Source: Coptis chinensis (lineage: Eukaryota > Streptophyta > Magnoliopsida > Ranunculales > Ranunculaceae). From it: DNA of 64,000 nucleotides. The position numbers were made by a program, and so were the translations under genes. The first letter of the stretch is position 1. Each line of letters starts with the position of its first letter. Of this stretch, positions 20,098 to 64,000 are shown one piece after another. The stretch spans positions 13,906,001-13,970,000 of the forward strand of contig CM027380.1 in assembly GCA_015680905.1 (NCBI GenBank). The letters run 5' to 3'. The notes beneath the pieces were generated by a model. The model was not told the origin of the DNA and made no database searches. It saw only the letters and a list, made by a program, of their open reading frames with translations.

Positions 20098-23000
20098 TCT
20101 TTTAGTGCCGTCTATGGGGGTGATAGTAGGTAGATATTCGTTTCGAACGACTGATTTAGTTTAAAAACCCTTACTGTTGTGATGGCAGGAGCAAAGAAAG
20201 CAAAGGGTGGCGCTACCACCCGCAACATCGCCGTCAGAGAAGAAGAGCATGAGATGCCTTAAAGTGGGGAGAATGTCGATCACCATGATATGAGTAATCC
20301 CCTTCAAGGACTGGTAACCAACACCGACGGACCAGTTGCTCCCGATGTAGGCCCTAGAAATGATGCTCAAGGAGAGCGCCAAAATTATGAGAATGCTTTT
20401 CTTACCAACCCAGAGTCTGTTCAGGCAAGCCAGGCGGTACAGGCTCTGGAACACCAAAGAAGCAACCTTGAGCGAGAGGTATAGCTACTGAGGCATTTGT
20501 ATCAATCTGATACAGGGAAAGAGCCGCTCATCGATCTCGATGGAGACGGTCTTCCAGAGGGCGGTCGAGCTAGGAACCTAGGGTGTAGGGATCTAGTTCG
20601 GCATGAACCATCAGAATCAGAGTATAGTAATTCGGATGAGAACTCGGATACAACATCAAAATCAAAGTCAACTGACCAGGAACGTGATGTCAACCTCCGA
20701 CACCGAAAAAGAATCCAGAATAAGAGACTTACTATCAAAGAAAGCGCATGGGAGACTGAGAAAAACAACCTGATTCGTCAGATGCATAGGATGACCGGTA
20801 AAGGAAGAAAAATGCAAGACTCCCTTGTTCAATCCACTATAATGCGGGCAGGCAAATCTCCTTTCGCATCATAAGTAATGAGAATGCCCTATCCCCGCAG
20901 TTACAGACAACCGAAGTTCAGTATCTTCAGTGGCAAGTCAAATCCGGTGGATCACGTATTCAGATATCATGCCACCATGGGACAATATGAAAGGTATGAC
21001 CACGTCATGTGTCAAGAGTTCAAAGCTTCCATGTCTGGATCTACACGTACTCCAGTGGTATCACAGGTTACCTGAGCGGCAGAACAGGTCCTCAGAAGAA
21101 CTGTTTAGGACCTTCATAGACAGGTACTCATGCAACAAGCACCAACCAAAATGGATCTATGCATTGTTCAACATCAAGAAAAAAGACGGAGAGGCATTGA
21201 GGTCATACATGCAACGGTTTATGGAAATTTCAATCCATATAAAGTCCTGTGATGAACAGACTGCTATAATAGCTTTCAAACAAGGGTTGGATCGGATGAA
21301 AACAACGCCTTATTCGGGCCCCTCTCCAGGAAACCACCCCGTGATTTGGAGGAACTCCTAAACAGGGTTGAAACTCATGCAGGGTGGGAAGAAGATATCC
21401 TGAAAAGATGTCAGGAAGCAAAGAAGACTAATTGGACAACCACTGTGGTCCCCCGAGAGGGGAACGAGAACTTTTCACCTCAAAAGCCAAAAAGGGACCG
21501 TCATCGTGGTCGCCAAAGGGCTGAATCCCCATCTAAGGGACGAATGCCCAGATGGCAGTACCAAAATGTAGCCAGGAATGGAGATGGAAAATCACAAAAG
21601 AAACCACGAATGGAATGAGTTGAAGAAGCTCTTCCCTCGATGGACAGAAACTTCGCCTCTCTGAACAAAATGCCAGACGAGGTCCTAGACTCGATCAAGA
21701 ACCAGAGCTACCTCAAATGGCCAGCTCCACTCAAGCCAGGCTCCCTGGGTACTAGATACCAGAGGACCTACTGCAAGTTCCACAAGAGTAAGGGTAATAA
21801 TACTAGAGCCTGTAGGACCCTAAAGAATGAATTACAGGACCTGATTGAAAGGGTATTTGAAGTAGTTTGTAGCACACGAGCAGGTGAATGCAATACAACC
21901 TGAGGAGATCAGCACATCAGTTCAGGATCCCCCAGGTACTAGACCACTCAATGGCTAGCTCCAGATAAACGTGATTTCAGGAAAGGCAAGCAAACGAAGT
22001 GGGCAGGCCACAAAAAAAGGTGCGCAATACAAAATGCACGTGGCCAACCAAATGAGGATCATGAACAACGAATTAACTATAGATTGTGCTCAACTCAACA
22101 CGTTACCCCACAAAGATCTACTAATCCTTTTCACTGAGGCCGATTGTCTTAGTATCCAAAGTCCACATAAGAATCCACTGGTTCTTACACTTCCTTTCAG
22201 AGATTACGATTTGCATCGCATATTGGTTGATCTAGGAAGTTCAACATATGTGTTATACTATGACGCATTCAAAAAACTGTAGATTCTTGACTCTGAGATG
22301 GTCGCCACCAACTCCAACCTATATGGATTCAGTGGAGACAAAGCTCTAACAAATGGGGAGGTCTAGCTACCCGTAGCTACTGGTCCGATAACCCTCATCA
22401 TAAATTTTATTGTGGTAAAATCTAATACACCCTATCATATGATCTTGGGTAGGATCTGGCTGAACAGACTCCACGCTGTTCCCAACCTATCACCAGCGTC
22501 TAAAATTCCCACATAATGGGAAAATTGAAACAATCAGAGGAGATCAGGTAGCTGCCAACAAATGCTATGCTCTGGCGACAAAGTAGTCCCCACTCCCTTT
22601 TGAACCAATGGAGGTGGGGCAACCCGCCAAATAGCAATTACAGTTGGATACCCCTCTCCCAGACCTGGTCCCAAGAGAGAGGGAGGATCCCCCCTCACTG
22701 GAGCCATTAGAGGAAGTGGAAATTGTGAGAGGAAGCTTGCCCAAAACCACTTTTATCGGCACCTTATTGAGTTTTGAAGAGCGTCAGGCTCTAATACACT
22801 TCCTTCGAGAAAACAAAGACGTGTTTGCTTGGCCATTCGAAGAAATGCCAGGAATTGACCCCCATATGGCATGCCACCGGCTCAATGTCCGCAATGATGC
22901 AGTAGTAGTCAAATAGAAACTGAGAAAAATAAGTGCTGACAGATCCAAAGCAGTAAAAGCCGAAGTTGAAAAGCTAAAGGCAACTAATTTTATTAGGGAA

Positions 23001-23775
23001 ATCAATTTCCCCACCTGAATTTCTAATATTATCCCAGTACGTAAAAAGAATGGGTCATGGAGAATCTGTATCGACTTCACAGATCTGAATCACGTGTGTC
23101 CAAAAGACAGTTACCCTCTACCACGGATTGAAAAATTGGTGGATTCGACAGCTGGACATGAATTGTTATCCTTCACAGATGGGTCCTCTGGCTACGACCA
23201 GATCCCATTACATGAGGAAGACCACAAGCATGCTAGTTTCACAACCGAGGATGGCCTGTACTGTTATCAGGTCATGCCGTTCGAACTGAAAAATACGGGA
23301 GCCACATACCAACGTTTAGTAAACAAAATGTTTGAGGGATTGATAGGCGACATTATGGAGGTGTATTTATATGATCTCTTGATCAAAAGCCTAAGACGAA
23401 GAGATCATCTCTCCCACTTGGAACGTGCATTTGACATTTTCTGAGACTATCGCATGAAACTCAACCCGGCAAAATGTGCTTTTGCTGTCTCATCAGGAAA
23501 GTTTTTAGGGTATATAGTTACTAAGCGAAGAATTGAGGCAAACCCATATCGGATCAGGAAATCATAGAAATGCCTTCACCTAAAAACATGAAAGAGGTTC
23601 AAAAGGTTACAAGCAAGTTAGCGACTCTCGAGCGAGGTTCATCTCCAAGAGTTCGGATAAGTGCAAACCTTTGTTTTAATTACTATGAAAAATACCTCAT
23701 TTGCATGGACAAAAGAATGCCAAAAAGCATTCGATCAACTCAAAACGAACCTAATTTCCCTCCCACGTGTCATTT
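20098..23775 (+). mobile_element. Ty3/Gypsy internal region fossil (gag, protease, reverse transcriptase)
   Basis: Reading plus strand: a gag-like region at about 20,180-21,620 (motifs YPRSYRQPKFSIFSGKSNP and FNIKKKDGEALRSYMQRF), a zinc-knuckle-like CKFHKSKG...C segment near 21,770, an aspartic protease core ILVDLGSS near 22,225, and a reverse transcriptase at about 22,640-23,560 with KDSYPLPRIEKLVD and a worn catalytic loop. RNase H and integrase are absent, so the element is 3'-truncated near 23,775. It is broken in about ten or more places. The part from 21,744 on is repeated from 47,878. Confidence 0.85.
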
Positions 23776-24027
23776 AGTTAGTGACGGAAATCTCCCTACT
23801 GAGATGCCCCCTCTCGTGTCATCTAGCACACGGGCGCAGGCGACACTACTTTTGGTGCGAGAATCTTTTTCTTAAAGCGGTTGTCGAGGCGCTTATGGGC
23901 TCAATTAATTAAGGCTTCTGAAAAGACGGCTCGAACAGATACGCCGTTTCCCGAAAAAGAGAATGATGGCAGTTCTATCCCGAAAAGACGCAATACTTGG
24001 GCTAATCGTAATCGTCCATCTTATCTG

Positions 24028-24035
24028 TATATAAA
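24028..24035 (+). promoter_or_regulatory. TATA box candidate before the gypsy-type transposon domain ORF
   Basis: TATATAAA lies about 118 bases before the ATG at 24,153, with a CT-rich leader following (AGAGAGCCCTCATTATCTCTC). The same motif is at 50,170-50,177 in the second block. The arrangement looks like a retroelement promoter and leader. Confidence 0.45.
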
Positions 24036-24152
24036 GGATCTAGTAAGAGAGCCCTCATTATCTCTCCCGCTATCTTTTCCCTGTATACTGATGACCCCTT
24101 GATCTCCCATTAGGGTTTAACCAAAACTCCAAATTTTCTTTCTTTTCTGATC

Positions 24153-24723
24153 ATGAATCTTAACTGGTCACTTATAAACTTTAGGGATCTTTCCTACCTA
24201 GAACTGATCCAAGAGAAATTTCATATCCCTGCTAATATTGGTCTTAAGTGGGGGAGATTGTCTGATGAGTTGGCCTACAAAGAAGTAGTGCTCATCATAA
24301 TCGATCAACTTAGGGCCGGACTCACTCTTTCCCTCCACCCACTGTTAAGAGAATGTCTGATCCACTTCAATCTTGCTCTTGGTCAAGCGGCACCCCGCTC
24401 CTATTCTGGAGCTGTTATGTACTCTGCCATACTGACAAAGAAACATGGATTCGTTCTAAATCGTTGGGTGTTTGGATATTTTTATGAGGTCCACCGCGAT
24501 TCGGGACCAATCTTACTACTACCTCATGACCCGAGAGACAAGAATTCTCCTATCATAATTTTCGAGGGAAAGCAGAGTGGCGAGGGTTGGTGATCACCAC
24601 CGCCGAAAGTGTTGGGTCTTTGCATGGGATGTTTGTCCTCTAGATGCCGATGGTGAGCCAGTGGGGATTCCTGTTCCCAGAAAATACACTCATGTTCCAA
24701 CCAATAAGTCTATTTTCTCATGA
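24153..24723 (+). mobile_element. Fossil ORF with plant 'putative gypsy-type transposon' domain, first block
   Basis: The reading begins MNLNWSLINFRDLSYLELI and includes the family-like pattern of a proposed N-terminal helix, a loop, and LTLSLHPLLRECLIHFNLA, which resembles the plant domain listed as Transposase_28 / putative gypsy-type transposon (assigned from memory of the family pattern). This domain is found near the gag part of many plant Gypsy elements. The copy here is broken, while its partner at 50,295-50,858 is open along its length. No pol region follows it. Confidence 0.55.
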
Positions 24724-24735
24724 ATTTTACAACCA

Positions 24736-25385
24736 TCATAAGAGTTTTTCGACTAAGTTCCAACTCCCAATCAGGAGGATTATAATTATCCACAACCAAT
24801 AACGGCCTATGCCCCCAATCCTCCTTACCCACCCCCACAATATAATCACAGTAGATTTCCCCTTCACCACCTGCAAACTAAAGTTCATTGCAGACGACCT
24901 CTTCACAAAGAAATGCTCTAGCACATCTGATAAACAGATGTTATTGCCCCTCTCATTCAACAAATCCAACACATGGAAAACCCTCCAACTATTCCCTACA
25001 AACCGACAAGGGCTTTTCCACAAAAAGTTCAAAACTTCCGGCCACAGTAAAGGCGTGAGAACGGCAACCTTATCCCAACCTTCGGTTGACCATAATAAAC
25101 CACAACACCCCCATCCCAGGAACGTAATCCAAGCCAAACACATTCCTCTCTCTCCACCTGTGTCATTATCGGTCGTCGGAGTCCACCCGACCAAACTCCG
25201 CCCTCAAAGCAGTAAGTACAATCTACAAACCTAGGTACAGCCTCCTCAACTATCGTCTCGATGGGGAAGACAATGGCCTCACCTATACCACGAGCCCTAT
25301 CACCATCATCTCCATCACTCACAGATCTCTCTCTCCACTGATCCAAGTCAACTTCCCCACTCAAGCTATCACTAGTAATCGACAT
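24736..25385 (-). mobile_element. Fossil of the same transposon-domain type, minus strand, first block
   Basis: On the minus strand the reading starts MSITSDSLSGEVDLDQW with an acidic N-terminus, then GVVVYYGQ.KVGIRLPFSRL and NSWRVFHVLDLLNE, which are the recognisable parts of the same plant gypsy-type transposon domain. It faces the plus-strand fragment at 24,153. It is broken. The pair looks like remains of two nested or adjacent elements and not like host genes. Confidence 0.55.
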
Positions 25386-26670
25386 GTCAATAGCAAATAC
25401 GAAAACAAAAAGATCAAATTTTTTTAGTTCAAAGAAGATGCACTTGAAGACAAAAGGTTCAAAAGGGTTTTGTTTTTCTTTCTTTCTGCTTTGTCTCTAC
25501 TTTGTGTTGGTAGAATAAACAATGAAAAGTCTTCACATGCAAAAACCCTTCAGCTGCACAAATCTCGAAAACTGACAAAACGTTTTGCCTTCCCCTAAAA
25601 AACAATCATAACCTCGCCCACAAACCGCCGCGATTTGTGCCTATGGACCAAATCCAACAGTTCCTCGTACATTTTCCAAACCCATTCAAACGAACCAGCT
25701 ATATGAACTGTGTTTGAAAGCTTTGTTTTATATTTTATTTTCACACCACAGCTGTCCAAAGAATAAATAAAATAAATAAAGAGGTTGTGTAAGTACCCTC
25801 CATTCTACATTCATATCACTACAGCACACGTGTCCACACACCAGGTCATATCTTCACAGCTCGTACCAAGCCATCAGGACGTAACGACCCAGACTTAGGT
25901 CGTCCCGAACATCATATACAGTCATATATGGAAGCAAATGATCTACTGCGATCCTAGAGCTCAATTAACACACCAATCAAAGAAACATTTACTTTGTAAC
26001 ATTGGACTTAGCCCTGAGCCTCACCAAAGCCTAGATTTAGGCATCGTTATTAAATATTTGATGTCACATTGCTCCCAAGGTTGGGTACCTAGTGGAGTTG
26101 TGACTGTCCCTGACACCAGTAGAGATGCTGTAACTTTGTAATATTTTGTACCCAATGTCCTAGTCAATTGGCTTATATCAAGTCAAGCGAATTCTTTTCC
26201 AACAAAAAAAAAAAGTCAAGCGAATTCTGTTTAAACTTTAAAGGACATGACAAAGTAATGTATGATGCATCAGTGAATCAGTGATCACTCCGTCCAGACT
26301 GCAGAGTCGCACAAAAGTAGTGGATGTGTGAGTCTTTTCTGAAAAAGAGATAGGCAAACAATGTCCTTCAAGCTGAAAGTGCACGAGAACCAGCAGCCCC
26401 TGGCACTTCCATCACGTGGGCACTGGACGCTCCACAACCATAGCCATCCATCAATTGTGGGCCCCAATATATGCACTTTCAAGAAAAATGACCAACTGTT
26501 TCATAAAACTACTGAGGAAAGAGTATGCCGCGTGGTCCTGAAGAGGCCGGGAGTATGCAAATTATCAGTGTGCTTATAATTACGAAGTTTTCATCTACCT
26601 ATATTTACAGAAAGTTTCAAAACAAATTCCACATTTTGAAGAAAAGTTGTAGTTACTGTCAAACCTAGTC
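25386..26670. other. Region upstream of PUP gene 2a
   Basis: No gene with a recognisable product is present. A 67-residue open frame at 25,938-26,141 is nearly the same in the second block (52,072-52,287) but has no known domain. From about 25,960 to the PUP start the two blocks are almost identical, whereas 25,840-25,950 differs more between them. Confidence 0.5.
26413..26418 (+). promoter_or_regulatory. G-box CACGTG upstream of PUP gene 2a
   Basis: The palindrome CACGTG, in the context ATCACGTGGGCAC, lies about 255 bases before the start codon and is conserved at 52,560-52,565. In plants this motif is bound by bZIP and bHLH factors. Whether it works here is not shown. Confidence 0.4.
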
Positions 26671-27472
26671 ATGGATGAAGAAGCCATTGACATAACCGGC
26701 AAAAACAGCAACAGCAGCCCCCATCAAGAAGAACAAATCCATGAAGTTGATACTTCTTCTCTTAAATTGTTCACTTGTCTGTTTTGGACAAATAAGTGGG
26801 CCTTTGCTACTCAGGCTTTACTACATGCATGGAGGCAAACGCATATGGTTAACCAGTTGGTTACAAACAGCAGCTTTCCCACTCCTCCTCATTCCTCCCT
26901 TGCTATCACGAGCTCGTGATCGGGCTCATGACCAATCTCAATCAACTAACCAAGCAATAGCATCCAATTTTCTCCTAAGCCCAAAGCTCCTAATCGCTAG
27001 TGTTTTTATGGGCCTTATAGCTGGATTAGATAGTTATCTATTTGGGCTGGGCTTACGCTATCTCCCTGTGTCAACCTCCTCTATACTCACGTCTACCCAA
27101 CTTGCATTCACTGCTGTCTTTTCACTTCTTCTTGTTAAGCAAAAATTCACTCCCTTCTCAGTAAATTCTGTAGTCCTAATGACCCTTGGTGCGGTCATTT
27201 TAGCATTCCATACGAACAGCGATCGACCTAATGGTGTGTCCAATGGAGAGTACTTCCTGGGCTTCTTCATGACACTTGGTGCAGCTGCATTGTTGGGTTT
27301 TATGCTGCCTTTAGTTGAGCTATCGTATTCCAAGGCTTGCAAAGCTATAACTTATGATCTGGTGTTGCAAGTGCAATTTTTGGTATCTATGGTTGCAACA
27401 ATATTTTGCACCATAGGCATGATTATTAACAAAGACTTTCGTGGTTTATATCTTCTCTCTTTACATCATTGT

Positions 27473-27713
27473 TGTTATTTATGCTAGGAGATACATATGG
27501 TGGTTAGCTTGTTAGGTTAAAGGGATTGAGTGTGTAGAAGAAGAAAAAGAAATGATGGAGGCACAAGAAGAAGGTAGGGTTTAGAGTATATTTACCCTAA
27601 CTTACAATACATATATTTATACTAGAGATGGAATAACCTAAATAGTAACAAGCTAAATAAGGTATGGTCTCACACTTATAGAATGTATGAGACCGACACT
27701 ACATACTTCAACA
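27473..27713 (-). repeat. Left LTR (3' LTR) of the first intronic Copia
   Basis: It begins TGTTATTTATGC and ends CTTCAACA. The polypurine tract complement CCCCCCTTC follows directly. It is almost identical to 53,623-53,863, with one substitution seen by eye. Confidence 0.93.
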
Positions 27714-30700
27714 CCCCCCTTCAAGCTGGAGCATAGATATCGCTCATGCCTAGCTTGTTACCAATATAACTCGAAGGCTGGGCGAATGTTTGGTTTGGTG
27801 AAGATATCGCCTAACCCGATCTCGAGAAGCCACATAAAGTACTTATCTCCTTTGTTTTCAACCTTATGTCCGACATAATGACAATCTACCTCTATGTGCT
27901 TAGTTCTCTCATGAAATCTTTGGATTAGAAGCGATATGAATGGCTACCGATTGTCACAATGAAGAGGGATCGGTGAGTCGTACCGAAAACCTAACTCATG
28001 TAGCATATTGCGGATCCACATTAACTCGCGGTCCCTTTGAGCCATAGCTCTATACTCACCTCTACACTAGACTTTGACACAACCGCTTGCTTTTACTCTT
28101 TCATGTCACCAAATTTCCATAAAGGAAAGTACAATATCCGATGGTGGAGCGTCTATTTGAAGCCCGATCCTGCATGTCGGCGATCGAATATCAACAACAT
28201 CAAAATTTCCATTAGAGCGATAGACCAATCCACGACGGGAGAACCTTTCAAATACCTCAAAATACGAATAAGCGCACGGTAGTGAGGAATGTGGTGCATC
28301 ATTATCTTGAGATACTTACAATCGGACCAAAAAGGAGATATCGAGGCGAGTAATAGTAGCATAAATCGGCTTTCCCACCAATCTACGGTATCCCTCAATA
28401 TCGGCATACATATCTCCAACATCCATTTGGAGTTTGTCGTTCGAATCCATAGGAGTCTCTCTTCGGCGAGCTCTAAATTACATGTCTCGGCGGCGGGTCT
28501 AATACATACTTTCTCTGAGAAATGAATTTCACCGAGGAACCGGTAACTTCAATGCCTAAGAAATACCGGTTCTCCTAGATCTTTGGTCTAGAAGCTGTCT
28601 TGAGATTGACTTTAATTCGATCAATACCCGTTTGTCGACCTGTGACAATGATATCATCAACATACACAACTAAGACAATAATCCTTTCTTTGGGTCTTTT
28701 CGGTAAAACGGAATGATCATATTCACACCTAGTCATTCCATTAGCCATCAAAACGACTAAACCCATGAAACCAAGCTCTAGGAGACTGCTTGAGCCCATA
28801 AAGAGACTTCTTTAATCGGCGGACTTTCCCCTCGAGCAACAAAACCGGGGAGGTTGAACCATATAGATTTCCTCGGAAGATCACCATGTAAAAGGCATTC
28901 TTAACATCCACATGAAATAGAGGCCGGTGATGATGAGCGGCAAGAGAAATCACAATATCTGTAGGCGAGCTTGGCAACCGAGAAAACGTCTCCGAGTAAT
29001 CAATAGCATATGTGCGGGTAAAGCCTTTGCAAACTGACGAGCCTTTAAGCGAGAAATAATACCATCAGTTATGCTTAATAGTGAAAACCCACTTACAAGC
29101 AACCGCTTTCTTCGGAAGGAAGAAGGAAGATCTGTAAGAACCCAAGTGTCATTAGAATACAAGGCACTCAACTCCTCGTCCATTGCTTGCTTCCGGCCGG
29201 GATGAGATAGAGCATCCACAGTAGTTAGGCGGGGACGAGGCGAACAACAAGGGCGTAGCAAAAGACTTGACGGATGGTGGTAAATGATCGGTGGAAACAT
29301 ACTTAAAAATAGAATATTTAGCATACTTACTAGGAAGACGCATACTAGCAGGTGGACGTTCAAGTTTCCGGAGTGCAATCGGAACATCAAGGTTAGATGG
29401 AATGGCAATAGGATCCACAAACCGATTGGGAAGAGGTGAGAGCGTGAGCGATTGAACTTTTCGGCCTCAAACTCGGAATGGCCCGAAAGAACTTGGCGCC
29501 AGCTCTCTGGAAGGCTATCAATGAAGCGCGGTCGCTCGATCGCTGGAACTTCGACCATCGAGGGAGCGCAGTCGGCGCTTCTGGGAAGGCTATTAGTGGC
29601 GCGGGTGGCGCTCCTTCTTCACTCGCTCCCTCATTTTCACCAAGATCATATCCAACACCACCGGATGGCATAACACAATCCTCAAATGGTTGAGAGGACA
29701 TCTTCCGCCGAAGAGTAAAATGGGACATCTTTAAAAAGGTAACATCGGCCTGAGACAAATGATTTGCTTGCGGAGATGAGGACTATAACACTTGTACCCT
29801 TCGCGTAATGCGTGAATACCCAAGAAAAACACACTTAATAGCACGAGAGTCTAACTTATCGCGACACGGCTTAAGATTATGAACAAAGCGGATACCATGA
29901 CCAAAATCCGAGGGGAAGATGGAAAGAAGATTAACCGGGAAAAATAGCGAGTGTGGTGTTTTGCCTCCTAATACCGAAGAGGGCATCACGATTAATCAAG
30001 TATGTGGCGATGGGGATCGCCTCGCCCAATAAAACTTTGGGAGATTTGTTTTGAAACATTAAGTATCGAGGCGACTTCAAGAATGGGTATGTTCTTTTAC
30101 CGGCTGACCCCATTTTGTTGAGGTGTATCCACCGGGGAGGTTTGATGTGTAATGCCATGGTCATCTAAAAACTCGGAATATTGTAGAGATATAGTCTTTG
30201 GCATTACGGTTCGAAAAACATACATGTGTGCGAGAATACCGATTAGTAATCTCGGCATAGAATTTTTGAAAAGCGAGAGAATACTTGAGAACGATTTTCC
30301 ATAATATAGACCCCAACAAACCGCGAGAAAAATCATCTATAAATGTAATAAAATATTTGGCTCCAAAAAGGCCGGTGGTTTACAAGGACCCGGACATATC
30401 CGAATGGACTAAGCGAAAGGAGCACTAGAACACTTATTTAACCTATTTTTGTAAGTATACGACGATGTTTAGCTAACTCACAAACCTCACAACCTAAAGA
30501 CTGAATACTAGAAGAAATCTTGGGAACTAAACTTCGCAAACTAGCGGAGGAAGATGACCAAGACGCCTATGTCATGCCGAGCGGAGATCGAGATTGTAAA
30601 AAGTCGCTTCTAGTGAGAGTGCCCATAATCATCTTGAAAGTAATAGATGCCCCGTGCTCATACCCCCACCAACTAGTGTCTTTGTGCGTAGATCCCGAAA

Positions 30701-32183
30701 CACAACATGAGTGGAAGAAAACATGACATTACTGATTGAAGAAATTGGGTGAGGCGATGAACGAATTAATAGATTAAAGGGGAAATTTTGAATAAGCAAG
30801 ACTGAGACAAGTGATATATTACGAGTTAATTGAATAGTACCCTGACCAAGAATACTAGCCTTTGCCCCATTTGCTAATGTGACATATGATGGTGTGTGAG
30901 TATACGCAAGACTAGAAAACATTTGGGGATTACGTCATATGATCGAAGCTCGAGTCAATAATAACCCAAGAGTTGTTATCACTTGTATGAAGACATGTTT
31001 TACCTAAATCGGCTAGTGGTCCTTGATGGGGTAGTCGGACAAACTCGATGAACTGGGAATAGCTTGTATCCGCTTCATCGGGTACGCAAAGTCTTCTTGA
31101 ACTTCGTTGAAAATCAGTCACTTCGATCAACTACCGTGGCATTGTTGGCTTTGTGCAAAGATGGGCGCGTCTGTTATATCCCAACAAAAATCAAGACTAT
31201 GATTTGTGCGCCCACAATGCTCACAAGGCTCAAAGCGCCAATACCACGACGCCCTCCTCCGAGTACGACCACCCCACGGCCACGACCCCTACCTCCTTCT
31301 TTGCGCCATTACCACGACCCGGAAGAAGGGTTGTTATTTGCTTGGAGGGATCAATAAAGCCCTTGTCATTGTGCCTTGGAGGAGGTGCGATATCTGAGAC
31401 AAACGAGTAAGCCTCGGGCAGTAGGGAGCTTAGATTCAAACTTGAACTTGGGCTTTCACATTAGCAAACTTCGGGGCGTAGCCCGGATAGAATTTGGAGA
31501 CTTCGAAATTCCTCTCTTTGTTTCTTCAAGCGATTTATATGCGTAGTAAGTGGGTGATATATATTGAGTTCTTCCCACTTGCTACGAAGAGAATTGTAAT
31601 ATTGAGAGATAGACATATCTCCTTGAGTGAGATCAAAGATGTTCTCATACTGTTGAAGATCTGAGAAGTATTCGAGATTGAGAGTATGATTCTTGTAGAT
31701 ACTCCCAAATCTCCTTCGAGATTTTAAAAACCATACGATATTACAAACATCTTTCTCCATAGTATTCCCGGAAATTCTTAACCAAGGCGTCATCTTTTGT
31801 CCGGGTTGTCTTTCCTTTATCATCCGGGGGGATCTAGGATGATTTTCCTTACCTTTCGATAAAGATAAGATATGCGCCTCGCGCCCATTGAAGGTAATTG
31901 GCAACACCCTCAATTTGTGAGGTCATACCAACAGAAAAAGCAGGGCGTATTAAGAATTCATCGGATTTTTGGAACAACATCGGTCATTGTAAAGAGAAGA
32001 AAAACTCACTTGATGAAAAAGAATACTAAGCTGCAAAGCTGCTTGAGGAGGGCGTCTCCTCTTTATCAATAATGAGAGAGATTGCGGAGCGAAACAATCT
32101 TAAGACACCAACTAATACTAAAGCTGGAACCTTGGCGGGGATCTCTCTCCCAGCATTCTCTAAGCGAGTAGGCTCCGATACCA

Positions 32184-32422
32184 TGTTATTTATGCTAGGA
32201 GATACATATGGTGGTTAACTTGTTAGGTTAAAGGGATTGAGTGTGTAGAAGAAGAAAAAGAAATGATGGAGGCACAAGAAGAAGGTAGGGTTTAGAATAT
32301 ATTTACCCTAACCTACAACATATATTTATACTGGAGATGGAATAACCTAAATAACAACAAGCTAAATAAGGTACGGTCTCACACTTATAGAATGTGTGAG
32401 ACCGACACTACATACTTCAACA
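32184..32422 (-). repeat. Right LTR (5' LTR) of the first intronic Copia
   Basis: It has the same TGTTATTTATG and CTTCAACA ends as the left LTR. The primer-binding site abuts its inner edge and the ATTGT target repeat abuts its outer edge. Confidence 0.93.
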
Positions 32423-45332: not shown

Positions 45333-45376
<44 letters not shown>

Positions 45377-47815: not shown

Positions 47816-47877
47816 ATACGCTTCTCTTTTGTTCAACGACCATATACCATCTACTTACGCAAAAAGAGAAAGTGTCA
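47816..47877. other. Short filler between the Athila LTR and the duplication junction
   Basis: About 60 bases, GCTTCTCTTTTGTTCAACG and following, that match neither the LTR nor the start of the repeated block. The duplication resumes at 47,878 with CCTGGGTACTAG. Confidence 0.5.
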
Positions 47878-50169: not shown

Positions 50170-50177
50170 TATATAAA
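50170..50177 (+). promoter_or_regulatory. TATA box candidate, second-block transposon-domain ORF
   Basis: TATATAAA about 118 bases before the ATG at 50,295, in the same context as 24,028-24,035. Confidence 0.45.
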
Positions 50178-50294
50178 GGATCTAGTAAGAGAGCCCTCAT
50201 TATCTCTCCCGCTATCTTTTCCCTGTATACTGATGACCCCTTGATCTCCCATTAGGGTTTAACCAAAACTCCAAATTTTCTTTCTTTTCTGATC

Positions 50295-50858: not shown

Positions 50859-50870
50859 ATTTTACAACCA

Positions 50871-52817: not shown

Positions 52818-55800
52818 ATGGATGAAGAAGCCATTGACATAACCGGCAAAAAACAGCAACAGCAGCCCCCCATCAAGAAGAACAAATCCATGAAGTTGAT
52901 ACTTCTTCTCTTAAATTGTTCACTTGTCTGTTTTGGACAAATAAGTGGGCCTTTGCTACTCAGGCTTTACTACATGCATGGAGGCAAACGCATATGGTTA
53001 ACCAGTTGGTTACAAACAGCAGCTTTCCCACTCCTCCTCATTCCTCCCTTGCTATCACGAGCTCGTGATCGGGCTCATGACCAATCTCAATCAACTAACC
53101 AAGCAATAGCATCCAATTTTCTCCTAAGCCCAAAGCTCCTAATCGCTAGTGTTTTTATGGGCCTTATAGCTGGATTAGATAGTTATCTATTTGGGCTGGG
53201 CTTACGCTATCTCCCTGTGTCAACCTCCTCTATACTCACGTCTACCCAACTTGCATTCACTGCTGTCTTTTCACTTCTTCTTGTTAAGCAAAAATTCACT
53301 CCCTTCTCAGTAAATTCTGTAGTCCTAATGACCCTTGGTGCGGTCATTTTAGCATTCCATACGAACAGCGATCGACCTAATGGTGTGTCCAATGGAGAGT
53401 ACTTCCTGGGCTTCTTCATGACACTTGGTGCAGCTGCATTGTTGGGTTTTATGCTGCCTTTAGTTGAGCTATCGTATTCCAAGGCTTGCAAAGCTATAAC
53501 TTATGATCTGGTGTTGCAAGTGCAATTTTTGGTATCTATGGTTGCAACAATATTTTGCACCATAGGCATGATTATTAACAAAGACTTTCAGGTTTCTATC
53601 CCTTCTCTCTTTACATCATTGTTGTTATTTATGCTAGGAGATACATATGGTGGTTAGCTTGTTAGGTTAAAGGGATTGAGTGTGTAGAAGAAGAAAAAGA
53701 AATGATGGAGGCACAAGAAGAAGGTAGGGTTTAGAGTATATTTACCCTAACTTACAATACATATATTTATACTAGAGATGGAATAACCTAAATAGCAACA
53801 AGCTAAATAAGGTATGGTCTCACACTTATAGAATGTATGAGACCGACACTACATACTTCAACACCCCCCTTCAAGCTGGAGCATAGATATCGCTCATGCC
53901 TAGCTTGTTACCAATATAACTCAGAACTGGACGAATCACTGGTTTGGTGAAGATATCAGCTAACTGATCTCGAGAAGCCACATAAGGAGTACTTATCTCC
54001 TTTGTTTCAACCTTATGTCTGACATAATGACAATCTACCTCTATGTGCTTAGTTCTCTCATGAAATACTGGATTAGAAGCGATATGAATGGCTACCTGAT
54101 TGTCACAATGAAGAGGGATCGGTAGCTGTACCTCGAAACCTAACTCATGTAGCATATTACGGATCCACATTAACTCACCAGTCCCTTGAGCCATAGCTCT
54201 ATACTCAGCCTCTACACTAGACTTTGACACAACTGCTTGCTTTTTACTCTTTCATGTCACCAAATTTCCATAAAGGAAAGTACAATATCCAGTGGTGGAA
54301 CGTCTATTTGAAACTGATCCTGCATAATCAGCATCTGAATATCCAACAACATCAAAATTTCCATTAGAACGATAGACCAATCCACGACCAGGAGAACCTT
54401 TCAAATACCTCAAAATACGAATAACTGCCTGGTAGTGAGGAATCTGTGGTGCATGCGTATACTGAGATACTACACTGACTGCAAAGGAGATATCGGGGCG
54501 AGTAATAGTAGCATAAATCAGCTTTCCCACCAATCTACGGTATCCCTCAATATCGGCATACATATCTCCAACATCCGACTGGAGTTTGTCGTTCGAATCC
54601 ATAGGAGTCTCTACTGGGCGAGCTCCTAAATTACATGTCTCACTGAGAAGGTCTAATACATACTTTCTCTGTGAGAAATGAATTTCACCAGGGAACCTGG
54701 TAACTTCAATGCCTAAGAAATACTTCAGTTCTCCTAGATCTTTGGTCTAGAACTGTCTTGAGAGATTGACTTTAATTCGATCAATACCCTGTTTGTCAGA
54801 CCCTGTGACAATGATATCATCAACATACACAACTAAGACAATAATCCTTTGCTGGGTCTTTCGGTAAAACACGGAATGATCATATTCACACCTAGTCATT
54901 CCATTAGCCATCAAAACCTGACTAAACTTCGCAAACCAAGCTCTAGGAGACTGCTTGAGCCCATAAAGAGACTTCTTTAATCGACAGACTTTCCCCCCTT
55001 GAGCAACAAAACCAGGAGGTTGAACCATATAGATTTCCTCCAGAAGATCACCATGTAAAAAGGCATTCTTAACATCCACATGAAATAGAGGCCAGTGATG
55101 ATGAACGGCAAGAGAAATCACAATACGCACAGAGGCGAGCTTGGTAACCAGAGAAAACGTCTCAGAGTAATCAATACCATATGTCTGGGTAAAGCCTTTT
55201 GCAACCAGACGAGCCTTTAAACGAGAAATAATACCATCCAGATTATGCTTAATAGTGAAAACCCACTTACAAGCAACTGCTTTCTTCGGAAGGAAGAGGA
55301 AGAAGAACCCAAGTGTCATTAGAATACAAAGCACTCAACTCCTCGTCCATTGCTTGCTTCCAGCCAGGATGAGATAGAGCATCCCTGTAGTTAGACGGGA
55401 CAGAGACAGACAACAAGGACGTAGCAAAAGACTTGACAGATGGTGGTAAATGATCAGTGGAAACATACTTAGAAATAGAATATTTAGCATACTTACTAGG
55501 AAGACGCATACTAGCAGGTGGACGTTCAAGTTTCCGGAGTGCAATCGGAACATCAAGGTTAGATGGAATGGCAATAGGATCCACAAACACAGTGGGAAGA
55601 GGTGAGGGCAGCGGAGCAGTTGAACTTTCGGCCTCAAACTCTGGAATGGCAACCGAAAGTTGTATCAGCGCCAGGCATCCCGGAAGCGCTATCAACGGGC
55701 GCAGGTCGCTTCGACGCACTGGAACTCGACCATCAAGGGGCGCAGTCGCCTCGAAGGCTATTAGTGGGCGTGGTAGCCCTTCTTCACTCGCTCCCTCATT

Positions 55801-58800
55801 TTCACCAAGATCATATCCAACACCACCAGATGGCATAACACAATCCTCAAATGGTTCAGAGGACATCTTCCCTTCTGAAGAGTAAAATGGGACATCTTTA
55901 AAAAAGGTAACATCAGCACAGACAAATGATTTGGCGCAGATGAGGACTATAACACTTTGTACCCTTTCGCGGTAATGCGTGAATACCCAAGAAAAACACA
56001 CTTAATAGCACGAGAGTCTAACTTATCACGACCTGGCTTAAGATTATGAACAAAGCAGACACAACCAAAAATCCGAGGGGGAAGATGGAAAGAAGATTAA
56101 CCAGGAAAAATAACAGAGTGTGGTGTTTTGCCTCCTAATACCGAAGAGGGCATACGATTAATCAAGTATGTGGCAGTAAGGACTGCCTCTGCCCAATAAA
56201 ACTTTGGGAGATTTGTTTGAAACATTAAGTATCGGGCGACTTCAAGAATGGGTATGTTCTTTCTCTCAGCAGCCCCATTTTGTTGAGGTGTATCCACACA
56301 GGAGGTTTGATGTGTAATGCCATGGTCATCTAAAAAACTCTGGAATATTGTAGAGATATAGTCTTTGGCATTACCAGTTCGAAAAACATACATGTGTGCA
56401 GAATACCGATTAGTAATCTCAGCATAGAATTTTTGAAAAACAGAGAATACTTGAGAACGATTTTCCATAATATAGACCCAACAAACACGAGAAAAATCAT
56501 CTATAAATGTAATAAAATATTTGGCTCCAAAAAGGCCAGTGGTTTTACAAGGACCCCAGACATCTGAATGGACTAACTGAAAAGGAGGACTAGAACACTT
56601 ATTTAACCTATTTTTGTAAGTAGCACGACGATGTTTAGCTAACTCACAAACCTCACAACCTAAAGACTGAATACTAGAAGAAATACTGGGAACTAAACTT
56701 CGCAAACTAGCCAGAGGAAGATGACCAAGACGTCTATGCCACTGAACAGGAGAGACTGAGATTGTAAGAGTCTGCTTCTAGTGAGAGTGCCCATAATCAT
56801 CTTGAAAGTAATAGATGCCCCCGTGCTCATACCCCCCACCAACTAGTGTCTTTGTCTGTAGATCCTGAAACACAACATGAGTGGAAGAAAACATGACATT
56901 ACAGTGAAGAAATTGGGTGAGACGATGAACGCATAATAGATTAAAGGGAAATTTTGAATAAGCAAGACTGAGACAAGTGATATATTACGAGTTAATTGAA
57001 TAGTACCGACCCAAGAATACTAGCCTTTGCCCCATTTGCTAATGTGACATATGATGGTGTGTGAGTATACGCAAGACTAGAAAACAACTGGGGATTACGT
57101 CATATGATCGAAGCTCCCGAGTCAATAACCCAAGAGTTGTTATCACTTGTATGAAGACATGTTTTACCTAAATCGGCTAGTGGTCGATGGGGTAGTCGGA
57201 CAAACTTCGATGAACGGGAATAGCTTGTATCCGCTTCATCGTATCGCAAAGTCTTCTTGAACTCGTTGAAAATCACCACTTTTCGATCAACCATCGTGGC
57301 ATTGTTGGCTTTGTGCAAAGATGGGCGTCCTGTTATATCCCAACAAAAATCAGCACTATGATTTGTGCGCCCACAATGCTCACAAGGCTCAAAACTGCCA
57401 ATACCACGACCACGGCCACTCCCTTGGGTACGACCACCCCACGGCCACGACCCCCTCTACCTCCTTTACTGCCATTACCACGACCAGAAGAAGGGTTGTT
57501 ATTACTGCTTGGAGGGATCAATAAAGCCACACTGTCATTGTGCCTTGGAGGAGGTCGCGAATCTGAGACAAACGAGTAAGCCTCGCACGTAGTAGGGAGC
57601 TTAGATTCACTTTGAACTTGGGCTTTCACATTAGCAAACTTCGGGACGTAGCCCGGATAGGAATTTGGAGACTCGAAATTCCTCTCTTTGTTTCTTCAAT
57701 CGATTTATGTGCGTAGTAAAGTGGGTGATATATATTGATTCTTCCCACTTGCTACTTAAGAGAATTGTAATATTCGAGGAGATAGACATATCTCCTCGAG
57801 TGAGATCAAAGATGTTCTCATACAACCGAAAGATACGAGAAGTATTCGAGATCGAGAGTATGATTCTTGTAGATACTCCCAAATCTCCTTCGAGATTTTA
57901 AAAAACCGCACGATTATTACAAACATCTTTCTCCATAGTATTCCACAGAAATTCTTAACCAAGCGCCATCTTTTGTCGGGTTGTCTTTCCTTTATCATCC
58001 GGGGGATCCGTCCGGATGATTTTCCTTACCTTTTCCAAGAAGATAAGAATCGCGCCTCGCCCTTGAAGGTAATTGGCAACACCCTCCAATTTGTGAGGTC
58101 ATACCAACAGAGAAAAACAGACGTATTACGAATTCATCGGATTTTGGAACAACATCATCATTGTAAAGAGAAGAAAAACTCACTTGATGAAAAAGAATAC
58201 TAAATCAAGAAAATCATGCGAGACGACGTCTCCCTCTTTATCAATACCGAGAGATCATGAAGTTTAAAACAATACTAAGACACCAACTAATACTAAAACC
58301 GAACCTTGAAATCGAGGATCTCTCTCCCAAGATTCTCTAAACAGAGTGGCTCCGATACCATGTTATTTATCTTTAGGAGATACATATGGTTGGTTAACTT
58401 GTTAAAGGTTAAAGGGATTGAGTGTGTAGAAGAAAAAGAAATGATGGAGGCACAACAAGAAGGTAGGGTTTAGAATATATTTACCCTAACCTACAACATA
58501 TATTTATACTGGAGATGGAATAACCTAAATAACAACAAGCTAAATAAGGTACGGTCTCACACTTATAGAATGTGTGAGACCGACACTACATACTTCAACA
58601 ATTGTTGAAAGCTATCTTTGAAAGAAGTGGCTGGCTTGGCTGTACCGAGTCGAGTCCTAAACAGCTCACATCTTAAAGAGGAGTACATAACGGGTGGCCC
58701 TCTTGTTTTAAATTTAGGCCGTCTTTTGTTTGGTGTTCTTCCGTCGGGTTCAGACTTCAGACCCATTTTACGGGTTAAAGCCCGATAACCCATGAATGCT

Positions 58801-59740
58801 CGGCTTGGAAATGTTAGAAGCCCATTAATGACTTAATGACCTGGTTTTCAGACTAACCCAAGGCCCAAGCTGGCTCTGGCTATGGCAGTGTGGCTAGATG
58901 CCCGAACGTCGTTCACGCTTGTGCCGTATCGTTTCCTGTGGTCAAGAGTTTTATGAAATAATTGTTCATCACTTCATCTGTTTAGGAGTTGAGACTTGAG
59001 ACCTTTATTTCTCAATTGCTCAATAGCGAGACCCCGAAAAGCAAAAAAGTCCCCCACCTTACTTTGTCACTCCGCGTATAGAAATATGAGACGATAACAA
59101 ATTAACATGCTACACGCCTTGTACATGCCATCCACTAAAAGACGCTTCTTGTTTTATGACTCTTAAAATATGGACTCAAAGAAGTTAGAGCCCCGTGAAG
59201 AAAAAATAAATGTGTATTTTATAGTGCAAAACATGCAATACGAGTTTCTTGTAGACGTGATTCGCCTATTGTGCCGTGCGACCTAATATGCGCTAATTAA
59301 CAGGCCAGTATGCCCAAGGTGTATGTCAAATGGCATTGGAAGCTAGATGCCACTGACCTAATTTTGTTTCCTAATCCTAAGTATTAACTATTTCCTCTCA
59401 TTTTCTTGTGAAGGCTATGACAAGAGAAGCTCGAGAGTATGAACTTGGAGAAGGGAAGTATTACATGGTGATAGCATTGGCGGCAATTGGTATGCAGTGT
59501 TTACTAGTAGGAAATCTAGGTGTGGTTTTCTGCTCCACAGCTCTTTTTAGTGGAGTTCTTCTAGCTCTGTTACTGCCTCTTCAACAAATATTTGCAGTTA
59601 TTTTCTTCCATGAGAGATTCAACGCAGAGAAAGGAATGTCCTTAGCTTTGTCTCTTTGGGGATTTGTTTCTTACTTCTACGGGGAATACAACTTGATAAA
59701 GAAACAAAAGCAAGCACCACCTATGACCCAAATTCCTTAA
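52818..59740 (+). CDS. Purine permease (PUP) family transporter, gene 2b (open copy)
   Basis: Exon 1 is 52,818-53,591 (258 codons, ending CAG before GTTTCT) and exon 2 is 59,414-59,740 (108 codons plus stop, after TTCTTGTGAAG), joined in phase 0 to give 366 residues, the usual PUP size. The N-terminus is hydrophilic with a glutamine/proline/lysine run (KKQQQQPPIKKNKS), followed by about ten hydrophobic helices: roughly residues 25-45, 57-77, 101-122, 128-148, 152-170, 179-200 and 210-235 in exon 1 and three more in exon 2. Family landmarks are GPLLLRLYYMHGG, STQLAFTAVFSLLLVKQKF, INKDF at the splice point and FNAEKGMSLALSLWGF. It should sit in the plasma membrane or another membrane and carry purine-type substrates, unspecified here. 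The intron is 5.8 kb because of an antisense Copia element; without it the intron would be about 0.84 kb, like that of gene 1. Confidence 0.92.
53623..53863 (-). repeat. Left LTR (3' LTR) of the second intronic Copia
   Basis: Ends TGTTATTTATG and CTTCAACA, followed by the polypurine-tract complement. Almost identical to 27,473-27,713. Confidence 0.93.
58361..58600 (-). repeat. Right LTR (5' LTR) of the second intronic Copia
   Basis: Same ends as the left LTR. The primer-binding site (GCTCCGATACCA, 58,349-58,360) abuts it and ATTGT follows it. Confidence 0.92.
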
Positions 59741-60178
59741 ATATTCTACAATGTTGTGCTAAATTTCAACTGTTATATAACCCAAACAAACCGTATTGGG
59801 TGCTTCAAATTTAAGAGTAAGAAAACAAGTCCTGCTCCCGTGAGCGGTAATGTTACGAACTTACAATTGACATCGTTGGTTGTTGGAATGATTCCCTTAA
59901 TGCATAAATATGTAGTGTGATCTTCACAATAGTGACATTACAGTTGTGGCATTTTGTAGCAATTGATCCACAACAGCATGCGGATTGGAGTGTATATATC
60001 TACTTTTGGCACACAGCAGTGCGTAAAAACAAATTTAAGAGCTACAACTTTGAGTGGTATACTTTTTCTCAAATTGATGTGTAGGGTCTTTAGTAGCTGA
60101 GGCCGGATTGAAAACATTGATTAAACAATGGAATATCAATCAAGTGGCCCCAGATCTATATCACCAATGTGTTCAGGG
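59741..60178 (+). other. 3' flank of PUP gene 2b
   Basis: Probable 3' untranslated region and downstream DNA, the counterpart of 33,559-33,972. No further gene is seen. Confidence 0.45.
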
Positions 60179-61222
60179 TAGGGGTGGGCAATGGGCCGGG
60201 TCGGGCTAGCCCGGCCTTAAACATTTAAAGCCTTTCAGTTATTAGGGTTGGGCCGGGTCATAAGTCTAAATTTCAAGCCCTAACTCTACCCTAAGCCCTC
60301 TTTAACAGTTTAGAAAGGTCGGTAGGCCGCCTATATATTATTTTCTTTTATCGTGATCGGCTTTAAAACTCATTTATATTACAAAAAATTTCAAAGATTT
60401 GCAAACTCAAAGTCCAACCACTTTGAAATTTGAATAACAACCAATCTAAGAATAATTTCGATAAGTTCAACAATTTAAAACGATATCCACAATCTAATAA
60501 ACTAAAGTACATGTAGACTCATATTTATATTTTAAAATTACAGCTTAAAATGCACAAAACATATTTTGGAATGAGCTTTCAATCGACATAAACTGTTATT
60601 TCTCAGACTCAAATCTCACCAAAATTACATTTAACATTGAAGAACACAAAACAAATAAAAGTATGGAATGAGTTTTACCGACGCCAACCTATTTTTTATT
60701 AAATTTAGTGCCTTTAACATTGAAGAACACAAAACAAATAAGAGTATGGAATGAGTTTTTACCGACGTCAACCTATTTTTATTAAGGCAAGGCCCAACGC
60801 TCATTATTGTTTTTAGGTTAGTTGGGGAGGGGAGTGATGGTGCCAGACGCGGAGTTGTGAGATAAACAATTAGGTTTACAAGTTTTTATGATATAAGACA
60901 AGTTATTGAAATCTTCATACACGGTAAGTGATAAATTCTGAAGCCGATAGTGTTATTTTAATTGAAAATACGTAATGCTGAGTTGCGATAGTTTTAGTTG
61001 TGTACAGATTTTATGAAATTAAATTATAATTGCTTTGGGGGGGGGGTTAATTCGTAGGCTTTATGTTTGAACTCGAACTCGACCGCTTAGAAGGCATTAG
61101 GGGGCGGGTCGGCCCCCGCCTAAACTCGTAAGGCTTTTAGTTGTAAAAGCGCTTTATAGGGGCTTTAGGGTCGGGTCGGTCAGAACCGGATTAGGGTCGT
61201 TATGGCCAAATTCCCACCCCTA
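60179..61222. mobile_element. hAT-like nonautonomous DNA transposon, second block
   Basis: The ends are TAGGGGTGGGCAATGGGCC and GGCCAAATTCCCACCCCTA, with flanks GTTCAGGG (60,171-60,178) and GTTGAGAG (61,223-61,230). It has the richer GGGCCGGGTCGGGC wording typical of these elements at its left end. No transposase. Confidence 0.7.
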
Positions 61223-61685
61223 GTTGAGAGTGTGTCGATTTTACTTCAATATCTAAAACGAAATTCACGTGAACGACGACAATCAATATCACTGGTAAAA
61301 CTTTCTAGATTTTGACTAATGTTGATCGATTTGGTGTGTCTTTGTCTCTTTGAAACGTAGCAAATATTGTTGTCAGTAGGCAAATTAAAGCACGAAATGA
61401 AATTAAGATAGAAGTACAGAACTGACTTAAGTGGACGGCCCTTTAACTATGATTGGCAATCTGGCATCTCCCCCATCATATCAAAGTTCCCTAGATGCTT
61501 CAGCTAATGCGTACACGAAAAAAATTACCCAGACGGTATAACATTATTTTCACTAATTTTGCTTTCTATGGGGGAATAAATTATTCTTGGGCCGCGGTAT
61601 TGACACCTCAATAAATGAGATTAGCACTCTTTTGACCAATTCAAAGGTACTATCACCTCTCCATTAAATACACAAAAAACACTAA

Positions 61686-62224
61686 CGGCAAGCAGCTGCC
61701 GCAGGATCGTACAATCCACGGCATCGGGTTGTCGCGAGATTCCATATTCCACAGAAGGTGATTTGATTGCCGTGGGTCTTTTTTTTTTTTTTTAATAGCC
61801 ACCGTAAAAAAAATTAGTTGCCGCGAGATGATTTTGTTTATTAAAATAGAGTTTTTGTTTGTGTTAATTATCAAAACTCTTCTTCATTAATTTGATCACA
61901 AAATTTTCTTATAGCATATAAAAATATTTGCCACAAAATAGCAAAATTATGGTTTGATTGTACACTTTTTTTGTCATGGTTTTAGTGTTGTTCTTGGAGT
62001 ATATAAAGAAACTTTAAAAAATAAAATAAGATATCAATATGTCGTGTGTGTTCAATACGCAAAATTTGAAGTGAAAAAAAACAAAAAATACTAAAAAAAA
62101 ATATGTTATGACAACTGCCTACCGTGGAATATGAGATCTCGCGGCAACCCGATGCTGTGGATTGTGTGATCTCGCGGTAACTAACTGTCGTGGGATATGA
62201 AATATCGCAGCAACTGCCTGCCGT
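61686..62224. mobile_element. Foldback (MITE-like) element, second block
   Basis: The left arm at about 61,686-61,760 (CGGCAAGCAGCTGCCG, ATCCACGGCATCGGGTTGTC) is the inverse of the right arm at about 62,118-62,190 (GACAACCCGATG-like CGGCAACCCGATGCTGTGG), with a further arm copy to 62,224. It clearly pairs with 35,467-35,994. Confidence 0.65.
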
Positions 62225-62783
62225 AGAACTATGGGCATGTAGGGGGTGTAAAAGGACATATAAGAAATAATCATTATTGTTTTACTTTTTGTCAAATGAG
62301 TGCTAATCCCATTTATAAGGGTGCCAATACCACACCCCTTATTCAAAGTCATTCGGAACATTGGCACAACCGCACTACTCCATACTTCAGAGTTAAGATT
62401 AGTTGTTGATTTCTGTCTAATTTTGTTCTGATCTCGGTTCATAAAATCCACAAACATCACGACGGACAGCCTGTCTTTTAAGTGTTAAACTACAAATGGA
62501 GCTCTTAAGTCTTAACGTTCATTAAAAAAATACATCCTTTGGCCGCAAGCAGCAAGCTAATTTTCAATACAGCTTTTACTGCCTGTCAAATGGTTTATAC
62601 TTCATACATTTCGAGTGTTCTCTTAAAACTTAAAAAAATTGATCTAGCTTAATAGCATCTATTTTATTGGACAGACTTTATTGAATGGTCCCCTTATTGA
62701 ATCGCCACCAACCTTATGGAACAAAATTTTACTCTTTTCAAGCAGTGGACCACTTAAAACTTTAAAAGTTTTGGATAATTTTT

Positions 62784-62812
62784 TTATTTATTTATTTATT
62801 TATTTATTTATA
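62784..62812. repeat. (TTTA)n microsatellite, second block
   Basis: TTTA units between T-runs; counterpart of 36,549-36,582. Confidence 0.85.
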
Positions 62813-62983
62813 ATTTTTTTTTTTCACGTAATAACTCTTAAGGACAAATCAGAAAAAAAATATCACTCTCAAATCTCAATACCACCATTTTTTTTTAATC
62901 ACTCACAAAGACCAAATAGATGAAAGGTCAAGTATATCCTTGACGCGAAATAAAAAAAAGCTCAGGTAGATGAAAGCAAGGCC

Positions 62984-63346
62984 AAATATTTCGATGTTGA
63001 GCGATATATCGGACCCCCAAAAACCGATATATATATCGAATATATCAATATATCAGTTGATATATGTCTTTTTATTGACCCGTCAAAATTTTGTTTTGTA
63101 TGTCGATATATTGAAAAATATCAAAAATATCGTTGATATATTAATAAAAATCGGTCAAAGATTGGTCAAAGTCAATGATCTATATTGTATATATTGGTCG
63201 ATATATATCAATATATTTGAAAATCCAATATATATTAGACAAAATGTGTTAATATATCCACTCGACATATCGCAATATATTCATATCGGATACCTCAAAA
63301 ACCAAGATATATCGGTAATATTTCAAAAATATCGACAATATTTCGG
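62984..63346. repeat. CGATAT-rich quasi-palindromic repeat, second block
   Basis: Nearly the same as 36,748-37,106; repeated CGATATAT and AATATCG motifs on both strands. Confidence 0.7.
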
Positions 63347-63445
63347 TCCTTGGATGAAAGGTGAAGTAGGTGAAGTATACCCCCTTACACGAAATAATAA
63401 ACGGCTCCGCCCAACCGAAACAACTTGGTGTATATAGTATAAAGT

Positions 63446-63694
63446 TATGAATAATCAATGTTCATACCTAACTGCTGTTCATACCTCAACATGAGCTATG
63501 AACAATCAATGTTCTATTTATAATATAAACATTCATTGTTCATACCTTAACATGAGCTATGAATAATTAATCATTGTTCATACATTAACATAATGTATAA
63601 TTAGTAAGAACACCTACTAGAGTATGAACAATCATTGTTCAAACATCAATATATTATATGAGGTATGTTCGCCTATTAGGGTATGAACAATCAT
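63446..63694. repeat. TATGAACAATCA palindromic cluster, second block
   Basis: At least four imperfect inverted units built from TATGAACAATCA and TCATTGTTCATACC, including ATGAGCTATGAA links. It is the cleaner version of 37,206-37,453 and resembles 161-270. Confidence 0.65.
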
Positions 63695-64000
63695 CAAATT
63701 TCACTGTTTTATAAATATAACACAAAAGGGTGAAACTGGTATTTTAAAAATAATCTATGATTTATATCTATAATAACATAGAGGGATAAAACTGACATTT
63801 TAAAAAAAGAAAAAATGTCGGGCCAACTTATTTTGTTCTTAAGGGTTACTAAAATTGAAATCGTGGGTTCATGGATTACTTAATGCTAAAATTTGTCCTT
63901 ATGAGTTACTAAAAGAAAACGATGTCCTCTAGAATTGTTTTGGTTCAAAATTAGTCGATCATCTAGACTATTTTCTTGTTTTTTTTTAACCATAGATCAA

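Follow-up and report, generated by a model that had tools for sequence, protein, structure and literature searches.

The window analysed here, a stretch of 64,000 nucleotides from the Coptis chinensis genome (contig C4, CM027380.1, positions 13,906,001-13,970,000), contains a block of 17 kb twice, each time with a purine permease (PUP) gene. We propose that the repetition is a heterotype (allelic) false duplication, in which two haplotypes of a single locus, one with and one without an inserted retroelement fragment, have been laid end to end in the assembly; judged from the sequence, we would assign this reading a probability of roughly 0.84. In what follows, the repeated block is termed X (with the copies A and B), its left neighbor P, the spacer between the copies S, and the right neighbor Q, so that the region reads P-X(A)-S-X(B)-Q.

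Comparison of the window with itself reveals one long repeat, in which positions 21,744-37,760 match 47,878-64,000 over 16,346 alignment columns (93.5% identity), in the order and orientation reported in the preliminary description of this DNA. When 100 kb of flanking sequence is added on each side (264 kb in total), the match extends to 21,744-38,673 and 47,878-64,937 (17,299 columns, 93.2% identity), and the offset between the copies, which had correctly been described as growing, increases from 26,134 at the start to 26,264 at the end. This repeat is far above chance, because the second longest of the 130 repeat pairs detected in the 264 kb at an E-value of 1e-20 comprises only 1,663 columns. 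Copy A (21,744-38,673, plus strand, 16,930 bp) includes, besides intergenic DNA and further repeats, a portion of a Gypsy element and the PUP gene with a Copia element in its intron, while copy B (47,878-64,000, plus strand, continuing to 64,937 beyond the window) is mostly clean and carries an intact gene. The presence of a gene and of a nested retroelement inside the repeat is therefore confirmed, as a two-exon PUP gene and a Copia element with the same ATTGT site in both copies. On the other hand, the tandem unit of 26.1 kb that had been postulated finds no counterpart in this layout: the repeat unit is 17 kb, and whereas the copies in a genomic tandem duplication abut head to tail, A and B are separated by the 9,204 bp of S (38,674-47,877, plus strand), which is single in the 264 kb. 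No second copy of S was detected there, only an internal repeat of 56 bp (at an E-value of 1e-10).

A search of the 935.6-Mb genome (including the contigs C1-C9, which sum to 916.5 Mb and of which the smallest has 85.2 Mb) revealed dispersed copies that cover the greater part of S; 25 of the 13,169 first-look candidates were scored. At its right end (47,877|47,878), four of the five fetched copies share the ending ...TGTCA and then diverge, while the fifth ends otherwise; such a terminus, common to dispersed copies with differing flanks, is characteristic of a retroelement. At its left end, all five fetched copies continue together beyond the position that matches 38,674, into a common sequence that is missing from the window, which indicates that S has been cut inside the element. 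S contains broken frames similar to reverse transcriptase and integrase (read by eye) and an integrase core match with an E-value of 5e-4, under the Pfam cut-off; long terminal repeats (LTRs) and a target site duplication of S are not visible, as the 5' part of the element is absent from the window. By these features, we take S to be, most probably, the 3' portion of a Gypsy-type retroelement that is present in many copies, with pol-like remnants. Across the boundary of P and copy A (21,743|21,744), the Gypsy sequence is continuous, as it is in all six copies fetched for this comparison, namely the best-scoring genome matches outside the window. We consequently regard B as the filled site and A, at 21,743-21,744, as the matching empty site for the right end of S. 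The possibility that S is a transposon that carries X was considered and rejected, as X lies outside S and S stops at its own terminus. It may be added that inside S, at 44,337-44,339, the homology passes from one set of relatives to another, with a different sequence beyond, possibly as a result of an old recombination within the S family.

Given a filled and an empty site, a single junction is left to be explained. The boundaries P|X, S|X and X|Q could each be natural, while X|S at 38,673|38,674 (38,670-38,677 together with its GGTT motif) is the sole junction that cannot. This bears on the ordinary tandem duplication, in which X and S would have been duplicated together as 26.1 kb and the second S subsequently lost. 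Such an event would account for the order and orientation of the copies, but within the 264 kb, S recurs neither to the left of A nor to the right of B, S|X is the terminus of a retroelement rather than a duplication joint, and the divergence of the copies is bimodal and motif-specific, as discussed below. In its simple form this scenario is refuted by the terminus of S, the empty site of A and the missing second S, and we consider it extremely improbable. Moreover, duplication on the S-carrying chromatid would have placed S before A too; as A has no S there, material from two chromosomes is needed. The layout corresponds to an S-free and an S-bearing chromosome joined once, which either an assembler or a rare exchange between homologs could produce. 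In the case of unequal exchange, the S-free chromosome would have broken where X ends on the right and been joined via GGTT to a break inside S on the S-bearing homolog, yielding P-X-S-X-Q, and copy A would be real yet badly polished, its reads having gone to B. The layout expected from this event, including one unnatural junction, is identical to that expected from the joining of two haplotypes by the assembler.

The divergence between A and B is strikingly uneven. There are 31 differences in the 6,260 bases of B classed as clean versus 1,058 in the other 10,800, although this split was defined by the local density of differences itself. Windows of one hundred columns without any difference number 53 of 173, as compared to 0.18 expected under a uniform rate and 4.0 if the differences are grouped as clusters, while the other windows, mostly repeats, differ by approximately 10% and exhibit many short insertions and deletions (indels). 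Exact runs of up to 723 bp cover the greater part of exon 1, exon 2 and the intron apart from the Copia element, and two further exact runs, of 137 and 97 bp, lie directly behind 21,743|21,744. The even divergence along neutral DNA that is expected of a tandem duplication is not observed, and with such a bimodal distribution no single age fits. The preliminary description, which deduced a very recent event from the near identity of much of the non-repeat DNA, does not take this bimodality into account. An ordinary old duplication was rejected as well, the differences being bimodal and motif-specific. Just past the stop codon of the PUP gene (33,564-33,569 in A, 59,747-59,774 in B), the copies exhibit a net length difference of 23 bp in an otherwise exact stretch, which could be a candidate for an allelic difference.

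The nested Copia element permits the differences to be assigned to one copy or the other. It lies on the minus strand in the PUP intron, at 27,473-32,422 in A (LTRs at 27,473-27,713 and 32,184-32,422) and at 53,623-58,600 in B (LTRs at 53,623-53,863 and 58,361-58,600). The same 5-bp target site duplication (TSD), ATTGT, at the identical intron site in both copies indicates one insertion, and the element is therefore expected to have the same age in A and B. We compared 2.6 kb of the element and polarized the differences between A and B with the five best-scoring genome copies outside the window. With gaps counted, A and B are only 85.8% identical, while B shares 89.9-93.6% with the five other copies; of the 377 differing columns, 286 single out A and 43 single out B as the odd sequence, in 11 both are odd, and 37 are unclear. 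Within the 5' LTR of the element and in the flanking intron, A and B are nearly exact. False duplications are recognized by an excess of erroneous sequence in one of the copies (PMC9516828), and A displays such an excess, judged here from the sequence and not from read k-mers.

The aberrant positions in A are biased towards a motif. With a third Copia copy as a template and 339 control trimers, 87 of the 95 CAG/CTG sites were found to be disturbed in A, as compared to 76 of the 339 controls (odds ratio 38). The corresponding number for B is 25 of 95, and for four further copies 18, 22, 33 and 26; with 36-67 disturbed controls, B and these four copies exhibit odds ratios of 1.5-2.7, i.e. a mild natural bias. 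Between 27,773 and 32,279 in A, 101 of 115 CAG/CTG sites are disturbed versus 93 of 592 controls (p 1e-51), with CGG as the commonest outcome of CAG (20 of 60 sites). Disturbance was also found in 13 of 19 CCAGG/CCTGG sites of copy A. An old and real pair of PUP paralogs revealed no CAG/CTG bias (7 of 29 sites versus 49 of 212 controls). In addition, the changes over the whole of A are asymmetric with respect to the strand (121 A>G versus 46 T>C, p 3e-7), which is not the pattern of strand-symmetric mutation and suggests that few reads underlie A.

Plants methylate CHG sites, including CAG/CTG, in transposons. The signature of A fits unpolished nanopore errors at cytosines that are presumably methylated. 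Decay of a silenced but real copy driven by methylation was rejected, as it would generate mainly C>T and G>A, while among the private changes of A the commonest is A>G (64), followed by T>C (33), C>T (31) and G>A (28). The idea that S represents another unpolished stretch was rejected too, as the parts of it that were tested exhibit no excess of private changes over 1.5 kb, nor clearly so over 0.6 kb. In the 1.5 kb compared within its right part, CAG/CTG sites are low in S (9), but they are similarly low in three of four relatives (7, 6, 13 and 20), hence a raw dip in this motif is insufficient alone and relatives must be compared. At the left end, the 0.6 kb of S contain 19 substitutions and 6 indel columns, as compared to 4-28 and 4-7, respectively, in three relatives.

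A precedent is known from a bacterium: according to passages of a study of nanopore basecalling, all ONT basecallers run with default models, with Albacore among those tested, do poorly at methylated CCAGG/CCTGG, and about 70% of the consensus errors fell at these sites for the then-current versions (PMC6591954). The case presented here is analogous to these Dcm errors in that the errors cluster at a 5-methylcytosine motif (CCWGG contains CWG), and differs from what those passages describe in that it concerns the repeat DNA of a plant and CAG/CTG generally (the CHG context), where methylation is presumed. Passages of another paper state that methylation in plants likely reduces the accuracy of nanopore reads, and do not name a motif of the CAG/CTG type (PMC9749173); our literature search found no direct description of nanopore errors at plant CHG sites.

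These findings also bear on the unequal exchange, which we hold to be unlikely. A real copy A should own reads from both strands, but its errors are asymmetric, as described above. Likewise, real reads across the junction of A and S would be expected to have polished the last 2 kb of A (36,700-38,674), yet 17 of 21 CAG/CTG sites are disturbed there, the exact run at 38,604-38,664 aside. Furthermore, the exchange demands a rare event between an S-bearing and an S-free chromosome. In its favor, 4 bp (GGTT) leftwards of the cut at 38,673|38,674 are common to X and to some copies of the S family, the sequence runs through without any N, and both the long identical runs and the scarcity of substitutions in the clean stretches (see below) fit a very recent event. 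Should the junction be real, it would represent a very young duplication by microhomology end-joining between homologs, with a break inside a heterozygous retroelement and a second copy of a PUP-type gene as its product, an outcome that appears improbable to us.

Several observations weigh against the joining of two haplotypes by the assembler. There are no N bases in the 264 kb, so that the junction of X and S is not marked as a scaffold gap, and the assembler would need some reason to join the sequences there. The GGTT microhomology is also a footprint of end-joining repair, and an exact run of 61 bp between A and B (38,604-38,664) is located near the junction. With 44 private substitutions, P somewhat exceeds its six relatives (18-42). 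Over some 95 bp of the 3' LTR of the Copia element (58,361-58,455), the deviant sequence is B and not A, as judged by the three other LTRs, so that either B is flawed in this patch or reads belonging to the 5' LTR were used to polish A. The error signature demonstrates poor polishing of A but in itself is no proof that A does not exist. Finally, in the 5,445 aligned bases of the clean stretches, A and B differ by only four substitutions, including two at the splice donor, while about 26 single-nucleotide polymorphisms (SNPs) would be expected if A were the other allele, given the published mean heterozygosity of 0.47%. Reads shared in polishing could have levelled the copies, and these stretches were also chosen as clean.

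The low number of SNPs, together with the read-type errors in A, could alternatively point to a false duplication of the homotype kind, in which S would be fixed and A, instead of being the second allele, would represent a read that is chimeric or rich in errors and was put next to the locus. However, P passes straight to X in copy A without S, so that either an S-free molecule exists or the P|X boundary is itself chimeric, and the exact runs (137 and 97 bp) that immediately follow this boundary, as well as the allelic appearance of the 23-bp length change in a clean stretch, argue against such an origin. We therefore regard the homotype explanation as very unlikely.

In our preferred scenario of a heterotype false duplication, there would be a single locus P-X-Q, in which the 17 kb of X carry one purine permease gene. 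One haplotype would pass from P directly to X, while the other would carry S as an insertion into the Gypsy sequence at the left margin of X (P-S-X-Q). Having written the first of these as far as some arbitrary position in X, which yielded copy A with its right part supported by few nanopore reads, the assembler would have continued, by one false join at 38,673|38,674, into S of the second haplotype and on through X and Q, yielding copy B. Polishing would have mended B, and A only in patches, so that the repeats of A would still contain nanopore errors at CAG/CTG sites that are methylated. The broken PUP gene of A would then be an error-bearing second reading of the gene in B, with its defects due to base calling.

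Passages of the paper on the C. chinensis genome, presumably the source of the window, report an assembly of 936.6 Mb with 0.47% heterozygosity and nine pseudomolecules (916.5 Mb, the smallest over 85 Mb), obtained from R9.4 nanopore reads with Albacore 2.1.3, Canu correction, SMARTdenovo, Racon, Pilon and Purge Haplotigs, and they include the remark that heterozygous regions may be assembled as duplications (PMC8172641). Apart from this paper, the literature search yielded no genome paper on Coptis, but only one on another species. False heterotype and homotype duplications are a well-described kind of assembly error, as stated in the corresponding passages of PMC9516828, and the present case shares with those described there the location of the duplicate as a neighbor on the same scaffold, the structural difference at its edge, the excess of read errors and the false gene gain. 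It differs from them by the lack of an N gap and by the telltale sign, which is the base-calling motif CAG/CTG rather than read depth. Other signs named for false duplications are a read depth that is halved (heterotype) or very low (homotype), a gap or a stretch lacking read support that separates the copies, heterozygous k-mers in the heterotype case, and discordant or spanning read pairs (PMC9516828).

The gene itself reads as intact only in B, where exon 1 (52,818-53,591, plus strand) ends with the donor CAG|GTTTCT and exon 2, which includes the stop codon, is predicted at 59,414-59,740 (plus strand), together encoding a predicted protein of 366 aa. The two exons match the Pfam family PF16913 with 245.8 and 109.3 bits, far above the curated cut-off of 30.6. 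No solved structure matching the PUP protein was found at an E-value of 0.001. The Copia element lies inside the intron (53,592-59,413), and the predicted gene remains open across it. The equivalent of exon 1 in A, according to the alignment of the copies (26,671-27,443, plus strand), shows two single-base losses around the CAG run CAGCAACAGCAG, and its splice donor is disturbed (CGTGGTTT, as compared to CAGGTTTC in B), while the equivalent of exon 2 (33,232-33,558, plus strand) is identical to that of B over the 288 bp compared. The defects of exon 1 and of the donor lie on or beside CAG, and we believe that they are best read as base-calling errors rather than as signs of a pseudogene.

Both copies belong to a local PUP cluster, in which 13 matched stretches group into seven places between 13.8056 and 13.9742 Mb of C4, A and B included. 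In detail, the PF16913 matches extend from 13,805,590 to 13,974,150, with those in the window at 3,666-5,458, 26,750-33,513 and 52,899-59,695 and the others outside it; the members besides A and B are two stop-containing fragments, a pair on the minus strand with 92.8% protein identity and a plus-strand gene just right of B. At the protein level A and B are 99% identical, whereas B shares 50-52% with the three neighbors compared. C4 has further PUP places near 20.1-20.4 and 22.35-22.41 Mb, and C7 has others near 13.1-13.6 Mb. With its two exons, 366 residues and location within a local cluster, B resembles the members of plant PUP (PF16913) clusters, but the A/B pair would be no step in the growth of the cluster if A is false. 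A feature unrelated to the genes is a complex minisatellite, its periods being about 30, 55 and 115 bp, located at 18,634-19,232 of the window.

The interpretation in the title of the preliminary description, a tandem duplication that doubles a transporter gene, is thus left unsupported by the wrong unit, the lack of abutting copies, the uneven divergence and the error signature, while the alternative mentioned there, namely that the assembly placed two haplotypes or a single locus in succession, gains support from the layout of the retroelement and the pattern of errors. Our literature search found no paper that joins C. chinensis with purine permease, and the phrase "purine permease" does not occur in the main text of the genome paper (PMC8172641), but there are papers in which purine permease, benzylisoquinoline and Coptis are all mentioned. 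From the practical point of view, the loss of CAG/CTG relative to other copies, in combination with the imbalance of A>G and T>C, may serve as a read-free test to flag unpolished stretches in plant assemblies made from nanopore reads. With respect to the biology of the organism, the apparent doubling of the transporter gene is most likely an assembly artefact and not a real feature of the genome. The relatives of purine permeases include importers of alkaloids, and a recent PUP duplication accompanied by a pseudogene in a medicinal alkaloid plant would make a tempting, but probably false, story.

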